Part shown: one piece after another, positions 3,482 to 24,793 of the stretch
How positions within the stretch are numbered: position 1 is the first letter of the stretch
Layout: each line of letters starts with the position of its first letter
Virus record (IMG/VR): IMGVR_UViG_3300027708_000248
Coordinates: 1 to 27,829 of that record
Length of the DNA: 27,829 nt
DNA from: a virus
Direction: 5' to 3' (one strand)
Notes under the pieces: generated by a model
Databases searched by the model: none
What the model was told of the DNA's origin: nothing
Seen by the model: the letters and a program-made list of their open reading frames with translations, nothing else
Translations under genes and position numbers: made by a program

Positions 3482-5988
3482 TCTTTAGGTTTCTCCTCGT
3501 TTCGTTTAAAGGTTTGAAGATGTTGCATCATGGCTTGCTTTCTTTGCAAGTCCATTTGCTCTTTACTCTTAGCCATATCCATACCAGCTTTTAATCCAAC
3601 TTGCTGTTCTTGATTTGCTAATTTGTGTTTGTCACTTTCTATTTGAGCGCCAACTTTCATGGCGTTAAGTTGTGTGGTGTCTTGGATTTTTTCTCTTTCC
3701 ATAGCCAGTTTAGCCATTGCAAGTTTTGCATCCGTATTTGCTTTTTGTCCTTTTATTTGAACTTCTGCTTGGCGGATAGCCAACTCTTGTTGCTGCATTT
3801 GAAGTACGGGGTCTTGCGCAGCTTGCTGAGCCTGCATCTGTGCGGCTTGTGCTTGGTCTTGTTGAAGAACTTGATTGGATGCTTGAGCCATCATTGTTGA
3901 CAACGCCAACTCCAACTGTGGAGGCAGTTTCTCGTCTTCAGGAGGCATGGGCATACCCAACTGTTGTTCCACTTTTTGGCGATACAAATACCCAGCGTGT
4001 TCTGCCATGTGTGCCTGCATAGCTGCCATCATTTGTTGCGCCATTGGGTTTTGACCAACGATTTGCATAATCATTGGGTTTTGTATTAAGGACATATGTA
4101 CGCTGATATGCGCTTGGTGGTCTTGATACATAAACGCTTTTAAAGGCTTACCTTTGAGTACCGCTTGGTTTTCGCTGATTGGGTCGGTTGGCTTTTGGTC
4201 ATCAGGCAAGGGCACTAGCTTCTCAGCGTTTTTAATACCCAACACGTCCAACATTGACCTGTGTAACTGGGGCAAGTCATAAATTTGAGGAGCCATCTGC
4301 GCCATCTGGATCACGGCCTGATACTGCACCACGCGTTGACTCATTGTTGCGGCGTTTGGATCGCTTACAGGAATGACGTCAACCAAGTCGTAGTCTTCCT
4401 TCTTGGCTTTCTTTGAACCGTACTCAGGCTCATACGTGTAGGAAGTATCCGTGTAATCCCGTATAAGGTTCTTGAGAAGCTTTAACTCTTGCTTCAAAGC
4501 AAAATGCACACGCGCTTGGACTGCGGTCAATACTTTAAGCTGGCGTTCGAGAAGAGCAAGCGTTGTTCCCACAGGTGCTTGGCTAGACATGTCACTGATG
4601 TTCATGTCCGCTGTTGCAGCAAAACGACGCCCTTCGTCAACGATCTGGTTCATCAAATTGAACAGTACGTTGCTAGGCTCTTTGTAAGGTAACGGTAAGA
4701 TTGAATCTCTAATGTTGCCAGAGGCAACGTCTACGTCTCGGAACTCGCCCGGAGCAATTGGTGTGTCATCACCCTTGATGCGTAGTCCTCTGGACTTAAG
4801 GCCTCCCGGTAAATTGGATAAAGTTCCCGCGTCCACCAGTTGTCGCATGATGCTTGTGGCGGATTTGGCAAAACCCCCGATGAGATGGAATAAACCAAAC
4901 CCGTACGCGCCAAAGCCGGGGATGTATTGGTAGTGGACAAAGTGTTGTCGTTTGAGTTTAAGGTCGTCGCCTTCTTCCCAGTTCCGTCTAATAGATAAGA
5001 TTTCATTTGATCCTTTGATTAAAGTCACCACATACGGCAAGCCAATACCCGTTTCTTCTCCGTCTTCGTCTACATCTTTGTAGCCTTCCAAGTCCAAATC
5101 AACGTGGCACTCATACAAAGTGTAGCGATCATCATTCAAGTCACTAAAGCCCGTCTCTTTGTCTTTGGCTTGCTTAATATCGTTCTTTTCTTTAGAAGGT
5201 TCTGCCAACTCAATGTCGAGATAAAACCCTGCTTGCTGAAGTTTAAGAATCTCATTCTTTGTCTTGCGCATCACATGCGTCACACGGTAGCAAGTATCCA
5301 TATCTGTAGCGCCATAGGGGAGAAGCATGTCTTCCGCAGGCACAAACACGCTGACTTGACGGCCAAGGCCGGGGTCGTAATAGACTTTTTTGAACGCAGA
5401 ACCCGTGGCTGGGAGACTCCACAACATGCGCTCGTGCTCTGGACGGAACTCTTTCATGGTCTCCGTCAACTCATAGTTCATGTCGTTCTCGACATTCGTA
5501 GCTTTTTCTTTTAACTCTGGCGTCTCTTTACCCAGTAGTTTGGTACGTACTGGCCCCTGTGCAGGGAATGTTTCTGTGATGGTCTCGGCCTGAAAGCGTA
5601 CAACTGCTTCCGTAATCATAGGATGGAACACTCCACACGCACCGTCCCAAGGCTCTGTCCGGTTCTCTATCTGGAGTCCCAACAGTTTTAGTCCTTCTGT
5701 ATAGGCTTTCTCCCATTCTTTACGGGAACCGCGGTCTTGGTCAATGTCGCTGTCCAAATCTCCTGCCAAGCTAGCCAAAGCGCCTTCGTCCATGTACTCG
5801 GCCAAGTTGTCACTAAAGCCTTCTTCGCCATCTTCTCCTTGCATTACGGAGATTTCCATGTCTCCTGCTTTAATATTTACCTCTTCAGGATCAACAATCT
5901 CAATCTCTAGCGGAGCCTCATCTTGCGCTAGAGCATCTATGCCTTGGGGTGCTTGGTATATTGCTTTATCAAAATTACTTGTTGCCAT
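3478..5988 (-). CDS. Portal protein, P22-like
   Basis: The portal is the dodecameric ring at the head vertex through which DNA is pumped and the tail attached. This 836-residue protein lies directly after the large terminase (8 nt apart), the normal position. Recognisable portal-type segments include RKEWEKAYTEGLKLLGLQIE, EPWDGACGVFHPMITEAVVR, FQAETITETFPAQGPVRTKL and the GFGLFHLIGGFAKSATSIMR-QLVDAGTLSNLPGG region. The length fits the large P22-type portals rather than the ~450-residue lambda or HK97 types. The last ~200 residues are Gln- and Ala-rich with long helices (QAQAAQMQAQQAAQDPVLQM), comparable to the helical barrel extension of P22 portals. An acidic N-terminal ~80 residues precedes the core. 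Confidence is high from context and motifs. Confidence 0.88.
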   Translation of the reverse strand: MATSNFDKAIYQAPQGIDALAQDEAPLEIEIVDPEEVNIKAGDMEISVMQGEDGEEGFSDNLAEYMDEGALASLAGDLDSDIDQDRGSRKEWEKAYTEGLKLLGLQIENRTEPWDGACGVFHPMITEAVVRFQAETITETFPAQGPVRTKLLGKETPELKEKATNVENDMNYELTETMKEFRPEHERMLWSLPATGSAFKKVYYDPGLGRQVSVFVPAEDMLLPYGATDMDTCYRVTHVMRKTKNEILKLQQAGFYLDIELAEPSKEKNDIKQAKDKETGFSDLNDDRYTLYECHVDLDLEGYKDVDEDGEETGIGLPYVVTLIKGSNEILSIRRNWEEGDDLKLKRQHFVHYQYIPGFGAYGFGLFHLIGGFAKSATSIMRQLVDAGTLSNLPGGLKSRGLRIKGDDTPIAPGEFRDVDVASGNIRDSILPLPYKEPSNVLFNLMNQIVDEGRRFAATADMNISDMSSQAPVGTTLALLERQLKVLTAVQARVHFALKQELKLLKNLIRDYTDTSYTYEPEYGSKKAKKEDYDLVDVIPVSDPNAATMSQRVVQYQAVIQMAQMAPQIYDLPQLHRSMLDVLGIKNAEKLVPLPDDQKPTDPISENQAVLKGKPLKAFMYQDHQAHISVHMSLIQNPMIMQIVGQNPMAQQMMAAMQAHMAEHAGYLYRQKVEQQLGMPMPPEDEKLPPQLELALSTMMAQASNQVLQQDQAQAAQMQAQQAAQDPVLQMQQQELAIRQAEVQIKGQKANTDAKLAMAKLAMEREKIQDTTQLNAMKVGAQIESDKHKLANQEQQVGLKAGMDMAKSKEQMDLQRKQAMMQHLQTFKRNEEKPKE

Positions 5989-18125: not shown

Positions 18126-20086
18126 AACCATACGATCACATACTAACAATAGATTTTGAGACGCGTTGGGACAAGCGAGACTATACGCTATCAAAGATGA
18201 CCACAGAGGAGTACATCCGTGACAATAGGTTTACCGCGTTCGGAGCTTGTATCCATGAGTATGGAAGCACAGATCCAATTGAATGGTATGGAGGATCAGA
18301 ACTACCTGAACTCTTTTCAAGTATCAACTGGGGACGAACCGCCGTACTTGCACATAACGCCCAGTTCGATATTGCCATCCTCTCTTGGAGGTACGGGTGC
18401 AGACCCGCTTTTATCTTCGACTCCCTATCGATGGCGCGAGCTTTACGCGGCGTGGAGGTTGGAAACTCGTTGGCAAAACTCGCCAGAGACTTCGGACTTC
18501 CCGAGAAAGGGACAGCTGTACACTCAACTGATGGAGTTCACGAGTTGGCCGCCGCGCTCGAACGAGACCTCAGTGAATACTGCAAACATGATGTGTTTTT
18601 GTGCGAGGAAATATTTAAGAGGCTGGTGGTTGCCTATCCATCCAAGGAACTAAGACTGATCGACATGACGCTCAAGATGTTCACACAACCAACGCTTGAG
18701 CTTGACCCCCTAATGCTATCCAATGCTATCGAAGAAGAAAGGACATCTCGTGAAGCACTATTACAAAAACTCGGCGTGGAAGAAGTTGAACTCGCGTCGA
18801 ACCCAAAGTTTGCTGAACAGCTTATCGCCCTCGGTGTGGTTCCCCCAAAGAAAGTCAGTAAAACTACAGGGAAAGAAACACTTGCGTTGGCTAAGAACGA
18901 CGCCTTCTTTCAGGCATTACTCAACGGTGAACGTGAAGACGTTGCCCTTCTATGTCAAGCGCGTCTACGGGTTAAATCAACAACAGAACGTACACGAGCA
19001 CAACGCTTTCTCGATATCAGTCAGCGAGGTAGTTTACCGGTTCCGTTGTCGTATTATGGAGCGAAATCGGGTCGGTGGTCAGCGGCAAAAGGCTCAGCCA
19101 TCAACATGCAAAACCTCAAGAGAGGTTCATTCCTACGCAAAGCAATTATGGCTCCCGAAGGGCAAAGTCTGGTCGTCGGCGACCTCTCGCAAATTGAACC
19201 GCGAGTACTTGCGTGGCTTTCGGATTACGAAGAGATGCTTGACATCTTTCGGTCAGGTGCTGACCCTTATGCCGCGTTCGGTGCGCAGATGTTTAACATA
19301 CCCGGACTTAGTAAAGAGTCGCATCCCGATTTACGGCAGTCTGCGAAGAGTGCGTTACTGGGTTGCGGTTACGGCCTCGGATGGGCGTCATTTGCCTCGC
19401 AACTTTTGGTGGGGTTCCTTGGTGCTCCGCCAGTCAGGTATGAAAGGAAGTTTGCGAAAGCACTAGGCGTAAGCAAAGACTTCTGCGATCAGTTTGTGGA
19501 ATGGAAAGACACCGAAATCAAACTTAGGGATATCCCTCACACTTGTACACTACGAGAACTTGTAGAGCACGCTATAGCTTCCAAAAGAATCATAGACATT
19601 TACCGCAAAACAGCATACCAAGTCGTGTCATTTTGGGAAACATGCGCCACGCTCATGGAGAAGTGTTTGTACGAGGGCGAAGAGCGCCAATATAAGTGCT
19701 TGACATTTCGCAAGGAAGAAATAGAATTACCCAACGGCATGAAATTGCTGTACCCAAATTTAAGAATCATCAAAGATGAAAAAGGTAGGAGCCAGTATGT
19801 ATACGGGCCAGACGCTACCAAGTTATACGCAGGAAAGATAACAAACAATGTCACGCAGGCGTTAGCTCGCATTGTAATGACGGACGGAATGCTCAGAGTA
19901 TCCAAAAGATACTTCATAGCAGGCACAGTACACGACGAGCTAATCGCTGTCGTGCCTGAGTCGGAAGTGGAAGAAGCTAAGACTTGGGTCTTGGCTCAAA
20001 TGACTATGGAGCCAAGCTATATGCAAGGCATACCATTAGAGGCAGATGTCGGCGCTCACAAGCGCTATGGGTTAGCTAAAAATTAA
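18122..20086 (+). CDS. Family A DNA polymerase with 3'-5' exonuclease
   Basis: Replicates the phage genome. The 654 residues start with a DnaQ-like proofreading domain: TIDFET (Asp11, Glu13), LAHNAQFD (Asp83), SEYCKHDV (Tyr153, Asp157). The PolA palm and fingers follow: motif A VVGDLSQIEPRVLAWLS (Asp354), motif B RQSAKSALLGCGYGLG (Arg405, Lys409, Tyr417), motif C GTVHDELIAV (His604, Asp605, Glu606). No 5'-3' exonuclease domain is present, as usual for phage PolA. The position equivalent to E. coli Pol I Phe762 is Leu413. The start is a TTG at 18122 with AAGGA 9 nt before it; the first internal ATG would remove the DFET motif, so TTG is preferred. It is the core of the replication module. Confidence 0.95.
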   Translation: MKPYDHILTIDFETRWDKRDYTLSKMTTEEYIRDNRFTAFGACIHEYGSTDPIEWYGGSELPELFSSINWGRTAVLAHNAQFDIAILSWRYGCRPAFIFDSLSMARALRGVEVGNSLAKLARDFGLPEKGTAVHSTDGVHELAAALERDLSEYCKHDVFLCEEIFKRLVVAYPSKELRLIDMTLKMFTQPTLELDPLMLSNAIEEERTSREALLQKLGVEEVELASNPKFAEQLIALGVVPPKKVSKTTGKETLALAKNDAFFQALLNGEREDVALLCQARLRVKSTTERTRAQRFLDISQRGSLPVPLSYYGAKSGRWSAAKGSAINMQNLKRGSFLRKAIMAPEGQSLVVGDLSQIEPRVLAWLSDYEEMLDIFRSGADPYAAFGAQMFNIPGLSKESHPDLRQSAKSALLGCGYGLGWASFASQLLVGFLGAPPVRYERKFAKALGVSKDFCDQFVEWKDTEIKLRDIPHTCTLRELVEHAIASKRIIDIYRKTAYQVVSFWETCATLMEKCLYEGEERQYKCLTFRKEEIELPNGMKLLYPNLRIIKDEKGRSQYVYGPDATKLYAGKITNNVTQALARIVMTDGMLRVSKRYFIAGTVHDELIAVVPESEVEEAKTWVLAQMTMEPSYMQGIPLEADVGAHKRYGLAKN

Positions 20087-23389: not shown

Positions 23390-24346
23390 ATGTCAAATTT
23401 ATCAATCTTTAATCCCGCACAAGTACCCGCATTCGCCCAAGGTGGTGAGTTATCCGACACAGCTAAAGCCCTTATGGGTGGCTCAATCAGCACGAGCAGA
23501 CGCATCTCTATCAAAGGTGGTGTGTTCCGTATCGTGGCTGGTGGCAAAGAGATCGCATCTATTGAAGAGCGCCATCTTGATGTCATCGTGGTAAAAGCTG
23601 CACCCAAAGTCAGCCGTATCTTCTATGCAAAGTCATACGATGGCGATAACATCACAGGCCCCGATTGTTGGTCTAATGATGGCGACAAACCCGATGCGTC
23701 TATCAAGGCTCCTCAGTCTGCGACTTGCATGACTTGCTCACAAAACATTGCGGGTTCAGGTCAGGGCAATAGCCGTGCTTGCCGTTATCAACAGCGCATG
23801 GCAGTCATGTTAGCGGATAACCCCGATGACATTTTGCAACTCACGTTGCCTGCAACGTCTGTGTTTGGTAAGGAAGAAGGCGACAAGCGCCCACTCCAAG
23901 CCTATGTGCGTCACCTCGCATTAGCGTCCCCTCCTGTGGATGTTGAGAAGATCGTCACTCGCATGAAGTTTGATACCAAAGCTGAGAGCCCCAAGTTGTT
24001 CTTCTCTCCTGTACGTTGGTTGACAACGGTAGAGTTTGAGTTGAGCAAAGCCAAAGGACACACGCAAGAAGCATTGGATGCTGTGCGTATGACGGCCTCT
24101 CAGTCTGATGGTGTAAAACCTAGAGCCCCTTTGAAGCTAGAAGGCACACGCCCTATGGGTGAGTTGACCAAGGAAGAAGACGCTCCAGTATACGAGCCTA
24201 TTGCGGCCAAGGCAAAAGCCAAAGCCGAGCCTGTAGCTGAAGTTGACGATGAGCCCGAAGTCCGCAAGGAAACGGCAAAGCCTAGCGCTGTACCCGCAAA
24301 GAAAGGCAAACTTGCTGACATCGTAGCTGATTGGGATGACGAGTAA
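23390..24346 (+). CDS. Probable single-stranded DNA-binding protein
   Basis: A 318-residue protein. Residues ~35-75 (SRRISIKGGVFRIVAGGKEI) and the beta-rich middle could form an OB-like core. Cys93, Cys113, Cys116 and Cys131 (PDCWSNDG, ATCMTCSQNI, RACRYQQRM) form a probable zinc site, reminiscent of the zinc subdomain of T4 gp32. After residue ~240 comes a disordered Ala/Lys/Pro/Glu linker (AAKAKAKAEPVAEVDDEPEV), ending in the acidic tail IVADWDDE, the hallmark of SSBs that recruit replication partners. Its place beside polymerase, helicase and primase genes fits. The SSB assignment rests on architecture and context and is not a firm family match. Confidence 0.6.
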   Translation: MSNLSIFNPAQVPAFAQGGELSDTAKALMGGSISTSRRISIKGGVFRIVAGGKEIASIEERHLDVIVVKAAPKVSRIFYAKSYDGDNITGPDCWSNDGDKPDASIKAPQSATCMTCSQNIAGSGQGNSRACRYQQRMAVMLADNPDDILQLTLPATSVFGKEEGDKRPLQAYVRHLALASPPVDVEKIVTRMKFDTKAESPKLFFSPVRWLTTVEFELSKAKGHTQEALDAVRMTASQSDGVKPRAPLKLEGTRPMGELTKEEDAPVYEPIAAKAKAKAEPVAEVDDEPEVRKETAKPSAVPAKKGKLADIVADWDDE

Positions 24347-24350
24347 ATAA

Positions 24351-24496
24351 GGTTTAGGGGGTAGCAAGAGCGGTCGCAACGTGTAGGTCGGGGTTGGTTT
24401 GTTGAACCTTTCTGTCCTCGTTAGATAGGAACATACCTACGGTTGCGTTTCCTCTGATGGAAAAGCATCACGCTACCCCCACCCTTAAATTAAACC
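24351..24496 (+). ncRNA. Candidate structured RNA with nested multi-branch fold
   Basis: The gap between the SSB-like and HTH genes folds on paper into a consistent multi-stem RNA. GGTTTA (24351-24356) pairs with TAAACC (24491-24496). GGGGGTAGC (24357-24365) pairs with GCTACCCCC (24472-24480). CGCAAC (24375-24380) pairs with GTTGCG (24442-24447), and GTAGGT (24383-24388) with ACCTAC (24435-24440). GGTT (24396-24399) pairs with AACC (24405-24408), and TCCT (24415-24418) with AGGA (24427-24430). TTTCC (24448-24452) pairs with GGAAA (24459-24463). The stems nest without conflict and give two three-way junctions. It ends 3 nt before the HTH gene ATG, which has no Shine-Dalgarno sequence. I recognise no known family. 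It may be a cis-regulatory leader or a processed RNA. Confidence 0.6.
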
Positions 24497-24499
24497 ACT

Positions 24500-24793
24500 A
24501 TGCCATACTCAGACAAAATTGTAGATTTAGTAGCCCGTTCGCCAAAAACATTAGGGAGTACCCTAGGTCGGTGGGCGATACATTTGGACTTTCCTGTAAC
24601 TAAAATAGCATATGCGCTGGGGGTCACCCGACAAACCGTGTACAACTGGTTTGAAGGTAAAGACGTCTTTGTTGCGTATCAAAACAGGGTAGAACTTTTA
24701 ACAAAAATAATGTCATCCTCTAAAACGGCTGACGAAGCATGGAGAAGAATATGCAAGGAATACAACCTAGATCCCTCAGTAACTCGGAACTGA
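24500..24793 (+). CDS. HTH protein, XRE-like, 97 residues
   Basis: Begins MPYSDKIVDLVARSPKTLGS and contains LGRWAIHLDFPVTKIAYALG and VTRQTVYNWFEGKDVFVAYQ, a clear helix-turn-helix in which VTRQTVYNWFEG is the recognition helix. A helical tail follows (VELLTKIMSSSKTADEAWRR). It is a likely DNA-binding regulator. ATG 24500 has no ribosome binding site in the preceding 15 nt and follows the structured RNA candidate directly, so expression may depend on that structure. Proteins of this kind recur in environmental phages from memory. Its target could include the TGTCnAnCGnTnGACA motif, which is inference. Confidence 0.7.
   Translation: MPYSDKIVDLVARSPKTLGSTLGRWAIHLDFPVTKIAYALGVTRQTVYNWFEGKDVFVAYQNRVELLTKIMSSSKTADEAWRRICKEYNLDPSVTRN

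Follow-up and report, generated by a model that had tools for sequence, protein, structure and literature searches.

To our knowledge, few phage non-coding RNAs have been described. The CI RNA of phage P4 is one such small RNA, and the screens of Weinberg and Breaker reportedly uncovered DUF2800/DUF2815 and other phage candidate RNAs beside SSB or recombination genes, with no function assigned; the DUF2800/DUF2815 candidates are said to lie upstream of their genes in Firmicutes phages. Pre-4.5S RNA is the classic non-tRNA substrate of RNase P, and the phage RNAs M3 (phi80) and C4 (P1/P7) have also been reported as substrates of this enzyme (PMC11143913). In substrate recognition, a GGU in the RNase P RNA pairs with an RCC in the substrate (PMC12710915).

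A structured RNA in a phage intergenic gap

The RNA that we compare with these systems occupies an intergenic gap of 153 nucleotides (nt) in the window, by which we mean the whole 27.8-kb virus sequence that was analyzed (27,829 nt; feature positions refer to its + strand). It is located in an early replication operon, on the sense strand and a few nucleotides behind the stop codon of an open reading frame at 23390 to 24346, and is followed by a helix-turn-helix (HTH) open reading frame at 24500 to 24793. The upstream product, a protein of 318 amino acids with the acidic tail DIVADWDDE, has many homologues and matches PHROG 27714 (E = 4.9e-25), a family annotated as being of unknown function. 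We call it SSB-like with little confidence, from its tail, its operon position, and a weak resemblance; a fold search with its AlphaFold model (pLDDT 67) gave no significant match, and a few single-stranded DNA (ssDNA)-binding proteins appeared solely among the insignificant ones. The downstream product (97 amino acids) has weak HTH/Cro-type matches in Pfam and PHROG. The first-pass annotation had described the gap as free of genes and of intrinsic terminators and the HTH gene as lacking a Shine-Dalgarno sequence, and all of this was borne out: no gene lies between the two reading frames, no terminator was found on the + strand 3' of the RNA, and the HTH gene has no Shine-Dalgarno motif, whereas a Shine-Dalgarno-like motif precedes 16 of the 26 window starts that were inspected.

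The same annotation had marked the gap as a candidate structured RNA of no recognized family, to be judged by its folding energy against shuffled sequence, by compensatory changes in relatives, and by a search of Rfam. Positions 24351 to 24496 fold at −55.3 kcal/mol, compared with −41.0 ± 4.5 kcal/mol in shuffles (z = −3.2), and none of the 200 shuffled sequences folded as well. No family in Rfam 15 matched at the gathering threshold, and a permissive search of the window returned a single meaningless microRNA match (E = 0.26). The C4 antisense RNA covariance model had no match, and ARAGORN called no tRNA or tmRNA in the window and 16 loci.

Compensatory changes were assessed among relatives obtained through homologues of both flanking proteins, which gave approximately 140 loci in IMG/VR, with pattern scans adding further loci that carry the RNA, here called type A; type A, like the type B RNA described below, was partly fetched by pattern, with some conserved letters fixed by construction. 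In an alignment of 31 sequences (A1), the 24 core pairs were 96% paired, 12 of them had changed on both sides, and the cells with double changes numbered 95, compared with 28.7 in shuffles. When the pairing was slid by 1 to 3 columns, 37 to 58% remained paired and 2 to 7 double-change cells were left. A set of 48 distinct sequences (A7), which was aligned by the model and so leans toward the structure, was 94.6% paired, with 13 double-changed pairs and 149 double-change cells versus 42.4 in shuffles. Outside invariant columns, the core pairs included 19 G-U cells versus 2 A-C cells, and it is therefore the sense-strand RNA on which selection acts. The compensatory changes exceed both the shuffled and the slid controls, and type A is thus a conserved structured RNA and a new, previously uncatalogued phage RNA family; together with the empty Rfam search, they lend strong support to what the first-pass annotation had proposed.

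A covariance model (R1) of the core, at 24366 to 24456, scored the window at 78.8 bits (E = 2.6e-17), the window being a member of the training set. Members scored 47 to 92 bits and occurred singly on their contigs, the 1.3 Mb of viral sequence contained nothing else, and loci outside the model building supplied further type A members at 47 to 83 bits; one contig had a second, meaningless match of 13 bits.

Fold and conserved core of type A

The fold supported by the relatives begins behind a flank of the type GUUY(A/C) (AGGUUUA here, 24350 to 24356) directly 5' of the closing stem P1, and AGUUYC or AGUUUA also precedes P1 in the unrelated contexts of loci L176, L330, and L338. The 5' strand of P1, GGGGGUAGC (24357 to 24365), pairs with 24472 to 24480, and the 3' strand GCUACCCCC together with the unpaired ACC behind it spans 24472 to 24483. 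At least eight different P1 sequences occur among the relatives (GGGGGUAGC, GGGAGUAGC, CGCUAGG, CGCUGGG, GGGCCGGC, GGAGGCCGGC, UGGGGUACAAG, and GUGCACUGCCU), and every one is complementary. Next come the 5' strand of P2 (AGAG, the bulged C24371, and GG; 24367 to 24373), which pairs with 24450 to 24455 with strong covariation, and, from the alignment of relatives, that of P3 and P4 (CGCAAC, the bulged G24381, and UGUAGGU; 24375 to 24388). The bulged C of P2 is invariant and is followed by an invariant U facing UU; P3 is CGCA/UGCG and leads through the bulged G into P4, which is variable in sequence and strictly complementary. The pair A24379-U24443 is not maintained in relatives, being unpaired in 32 of 48. 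P5, apparently stacked straight onto P4, consists of 5 bp between an invariant or nearly invariant CGGGG (24389 to 24393) and CCUCG (24416 to 24420) and includes an invariant G-U pair; its loop varies in length and is rich in U in the subtype of the window. Comparison of relatives places a conserved UUA (UYA) after CCUCG (the two spanning 24416 to 24423) and then a single-stranded linker with a conserved ACAY at its end (24424 to 24434); across relatives, 12 to 20 nt lie between UYA and the ACAY end. The 3' strands of P4, P3, and P2, including the invariant UGCG-UUUCC, occupy 24435 to 24455. The hairpin P6 (GAUG-GAAAAG-CAUC, 24456 to 24469, with its stem at 24456 to 24459 and 24466 to 24469) is specific to the subtype: relatives within it carry other complementary stems, and P6 is absent in the CGCUAGG/CGCUGGG subtype. 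A search by covariation for extra tertiary pairs or a pseudoknot found none beyond the model. Positions in the unpaired regions are invariant across contexts with different genes, which argues that insulating genes is not the core's only task.

The seven helices originally drawn for this RNA stand in part. Comparison retains P1 (the GC-rich stem of 9 bp), the long P2-P3-P4 arm, and the small P6 hairpin; GGUUUA/UAAACC, the 6-bp stem drawn outermost, is not maintained in relatives, where the unpaired-looking GUUY(A/C) is conserved instead. The two apical hairpins of the minimum-energy fold are likewise not kept; all relatives pair CGGGG with CCUCG and continue with UYA and the linker, and what stands at the apex is an asymmetrically looped stem instead of a three-way junction. 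The minimum-energy drawing misled because the conserved fold is less stable in the model by 5.5 kcal/mol (−46.6 versus −52.1 kcal/mol). Overall, the observation holds up, with more behind it than the first reading was able to show, and its detailed fold needs correction.

Genomic contexts and exchange of RNAs behind SSB genes

Type A usually lies 5 to 12 nt past a stop codon and is always in sense orientation, codirectional with its neighbors. It is portable, being present in numerous phages, most of them unrelated, and in at least six contexts without the window's gene pair. An Enc34-type SSB gene and a small open reading frame precede it in L313, where a beta-clamp-like protein is encoded downstream; recombination-type proteins are encoded upstream and a KTSC protein downstream in L324, L338, and L367; an AAA_24/Sak4-like ATPase is upstream and DUF669 downstream in L384; and L330, L176/L179, and L327 provide further contexts. 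Small unknown proteins are also found among the downstream products. L311 and L315 carry the RNA but lack the HTH gene, and an extra gene separates RNA and HTH gene in L372. Type A thus occurs independently of its neighboring genes, and the downstream genes, being unrelated, supplied no consistent gene or pathway of the kind associated with a riboswitch or leader. Terminator-like hairpins adjoin type A in L313 (5' of the match at 3534 to 3612, minus strand) and L327 (5' of 145 to 223), leaving no room for a promoter between hairpin and RNA.

BLAST searches for type A and type B in named phages gave no believable match, and one to Aeromonas phage phiA014S failed the covariance model. A loose-pattern scan of genome contigs returned 120 matches, of which 100 were checked; only three reached approximately 21 bits, and these were judged to be due to chance, as was the pattern match in L158. 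A search for type A in 399 genomes of one bacterial order, run without a positive control, found nothing.

In the window's phage group, the same gap between the SSB-like and HTH genes ranges from 7 to more than 1,000 nt and may hold nothing (7 nt), a plain GC hairpin (approximately 30 nt), type B (52 to 98 nt), type A (130 to 160 nt), a tRNA-like element (L056), or other contents. Type B is far commoner than type A, is unrelated to it inside, and has the ends GGGGGAAAGCGGAUGC...GCAGCGAGUACCCC-ACC; its apical stem covaries freely, and it had no Rfam match in the loci scanned. Elements of the form GGGGGAAAGCGGAUGC...ACGCAGCGAGUACCCC-ACC (L386 to L608; for example, L396:2592-2649 and L412:2881-2925) are very common directly behind phage SSB genes, and their GAAAGC/GCGAGUAC internal loop resembles the sarcin-ricin (bulged-G) motif. 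Among the matches listed, type B lies 6 to 10 nt past the stop codon in 142 of the 162 cases scored, and of 67 upstream proteins sampled at least 23 belong to SSB PHROGs (7364, 10 proteins; 6015, 7; 112, 6), with another 10 matching the window's family, 27714. Type B therefore follows genes for ssDNA-binding proteins from several unrelated families. Types A and B were never found together at any locus examined or in any of 20 whole type A records, an exclusion that is weak evidence, as detection was by pattern and contigs drawn at random may seldom carry type B. Both types are common in (largely freshwater) metagenomic viruses and yet are missing from Rfam.

Tandem elements occur at type B loci. 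In L412, L417, L436, L593, L595, L518, L549, and L568, a conserved structured element, GGCNCCGGUNACC...CAUCAGG...CCUGAUG...GGUNACCGGAGCC-ACCC, stands directly 3' of type B, and a further structured-looking element, GCCCAGCCGGAGGUGGCGC...CGGUGACCCCGC, is found just past it in L504, L535, and L605. The tRNA-like element of L056 has a perfect T-arm (GUGGG-UUCGAUC-CCCAC) beside an acceptor-like stem, GGGGGUUGG/CCAACCCCC-ACC, and a second T-loop hairpin; it is not called as a tRNA. In L038, L044, and L060, a GC hairpin of the UUCG/UUUG type separates an AGGAG from the HTH start codon, and its folding would restore normal Shine-Dalgarno spacing, as a hairpin does in T4 gene 25.

Closing ends and candidate functions

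Types A and B have in common a G-rich closing stem that is usually followed by an unpaired RCC, ends of the kind seen in pre-4.5S RNA and other RNase P substrates. The RCC follows P1 in 175 of the 188 type B elements listed and in about three-quarters of type A, a count that depends on the reading of the CGCTAGG subtype, in which the G read as R may form an additional terminal C-G pair; none of the 16 plain hairpins from that gap is followed by it. The TGGGGTACAAG clade (ACA), L330 (AUC), L324/L338, and L162 lack the RCC. The ends of the window's element, GGGGG...CCCCC-ACCC, are identical to those of Escherichia coli 4.5S RNA. A type B element in L494 ends in CCCC-ACCA and is followed at once, after approximately 4 nt, by a tRNA-Gly(UCC). 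One GGGG...CCCC-ACC match on the minus strand of the window (19204 to 19300 of the reverse complement) was dismissed, as it does not lie between genes.

We propose, with slightly less than even confidence, that the RNase P of the host releases type A from the early operon as a small RNA. In this inferred pathway, the whole element would be excised from the polycistronic mRNA: RNase P, guided by the unpaired RCC, would cut immediately before the G-rich strand of the closing stem, as in pre-4.5S, M3 (phi80), and C4 (P1/P7) RNAs, and exonucleases would trim the other side. Cleavage would split the SSB-like cistron from the cistron behind it and yield a stable small RNA capped by its stem, and the conserved core of this RNA may then bind, in trans, a factor of the host or the phage. 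From such sharply defined closing ends, the cleavage site is predicted to be precise.

The conservation of the core is explicable without RNase P, and the position of these RNAs is also that of a cis-acting intercistronic element of the REP or puf operon type, in which a structure behind the stop codon would shield the SSB mRNA from 3'-5' exonucleases and keep SSB in excess over the downstream regulator. This is possible but doubtful. It would account for the short, regular distance of type B from the stop codon and for the SSB families upstream of it, for the plain GC hairpin that can stand in the same gap, and for the several type B elements that have a further hairpin, a terminator, or no evident gene behind them. 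However, a plain stability device needs no invariant loop nucleotides common to unrelated phages, type A is not directly behind an SSB gene in L324, L330, L384, and L176, and a gene or stretch lies between the SSB gene and the RNA in L084 and L348. The invariance of the core in unrelated phages argues for a function of the RNA itself. A leader controlling the HTH gene, as the first-pass annotation had suggested, or more generally a riboswitch-like or protein-bound regulator of the downstream gene, is unlikely: the RNA does mostly end 10 to 45 nt ahead of a start codon, and no Shine-Dalgarno sequence precedes the HTH gene, but unrelated genes follow the same RNA elsewhere, some loci lack the HTH gene or carry it at a remove from the RNA (L311, L315, and L372), and in related phages that same gene comes after a gap of 7 nt or one with a plain hairpin. 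The other suggestion made for this gap, an independently made phage RNA, fits better than a leader, except that this RNA lies inside an operon, from whose transcript it is probably excised instead of having one of its own.

Some hammerhead and HDV-like ribozymes are intercistronic in phages, and an invariant unpaired core among freely varying stems would also suit a self-cleaving ribozyme that splits the operon mRNA; with no match to catalogued ribozyme families and no double pseudoknot by covariation, we regard this as highly improbable. We give very little credence to a replication or recombination site acting at the DNA level as a hairpin in ssDNA, since the location in replication modules that would favor it is set against an orientation that is always that of the operon, the invariant G-U pair in P5, and an excess of G-U over A-C cells by which just one strand folds well.

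Type A belongs to a broader set of SSB-linked phage RNAs with a candidate function. It is conceivable, though we would hold this loosely, that phages carry a class of interchangeable small RNAs that are unrelated inside, have common RNase P-type ends, and are attached behind genes for ssDNA-binding proteins to be released and act on the host; types A and B would be two members, and the tRNA-like and tandem elements would be others. Because these RNAs are tightly linked to genes for ssDNA-binding proteins of several unrelated families, and because different RNAs replace one another at a single position, a shared role can be tested directly.

Relation to described RNAs

The DUF2800/DUF2815 candidates reportedly resemble type A in being structured RNAs by phage SSB or recombination genes; they differ in that type A had no Rfam match. 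Type B shares with type A the gap, the phage group, and the closing ends, and its interior is unrelated. The C4 antisense RNA of P1/P7, the P4 CI RNA, and the M3 RNA of phi80 are, like the proposed product, phage small RNAs, whereas type A has no C4-family match in Rfam and no visible antisense target and differs in structure and genomic place. C4 and M3 have in addition been reported as RNase P substrates (PMC11143913). Bacterial pre-4.5S (signal recognition particle [SRP]) RNA is dissimilar to type A in the sequence and structure of its interior, and type A is encoded by phages, inside an operon, and matches no SRP family in Rfam; however, each is a long irregular hairpin with GGGGG/CCCCC as its closing stem and ACC behind it (PMC11143913).
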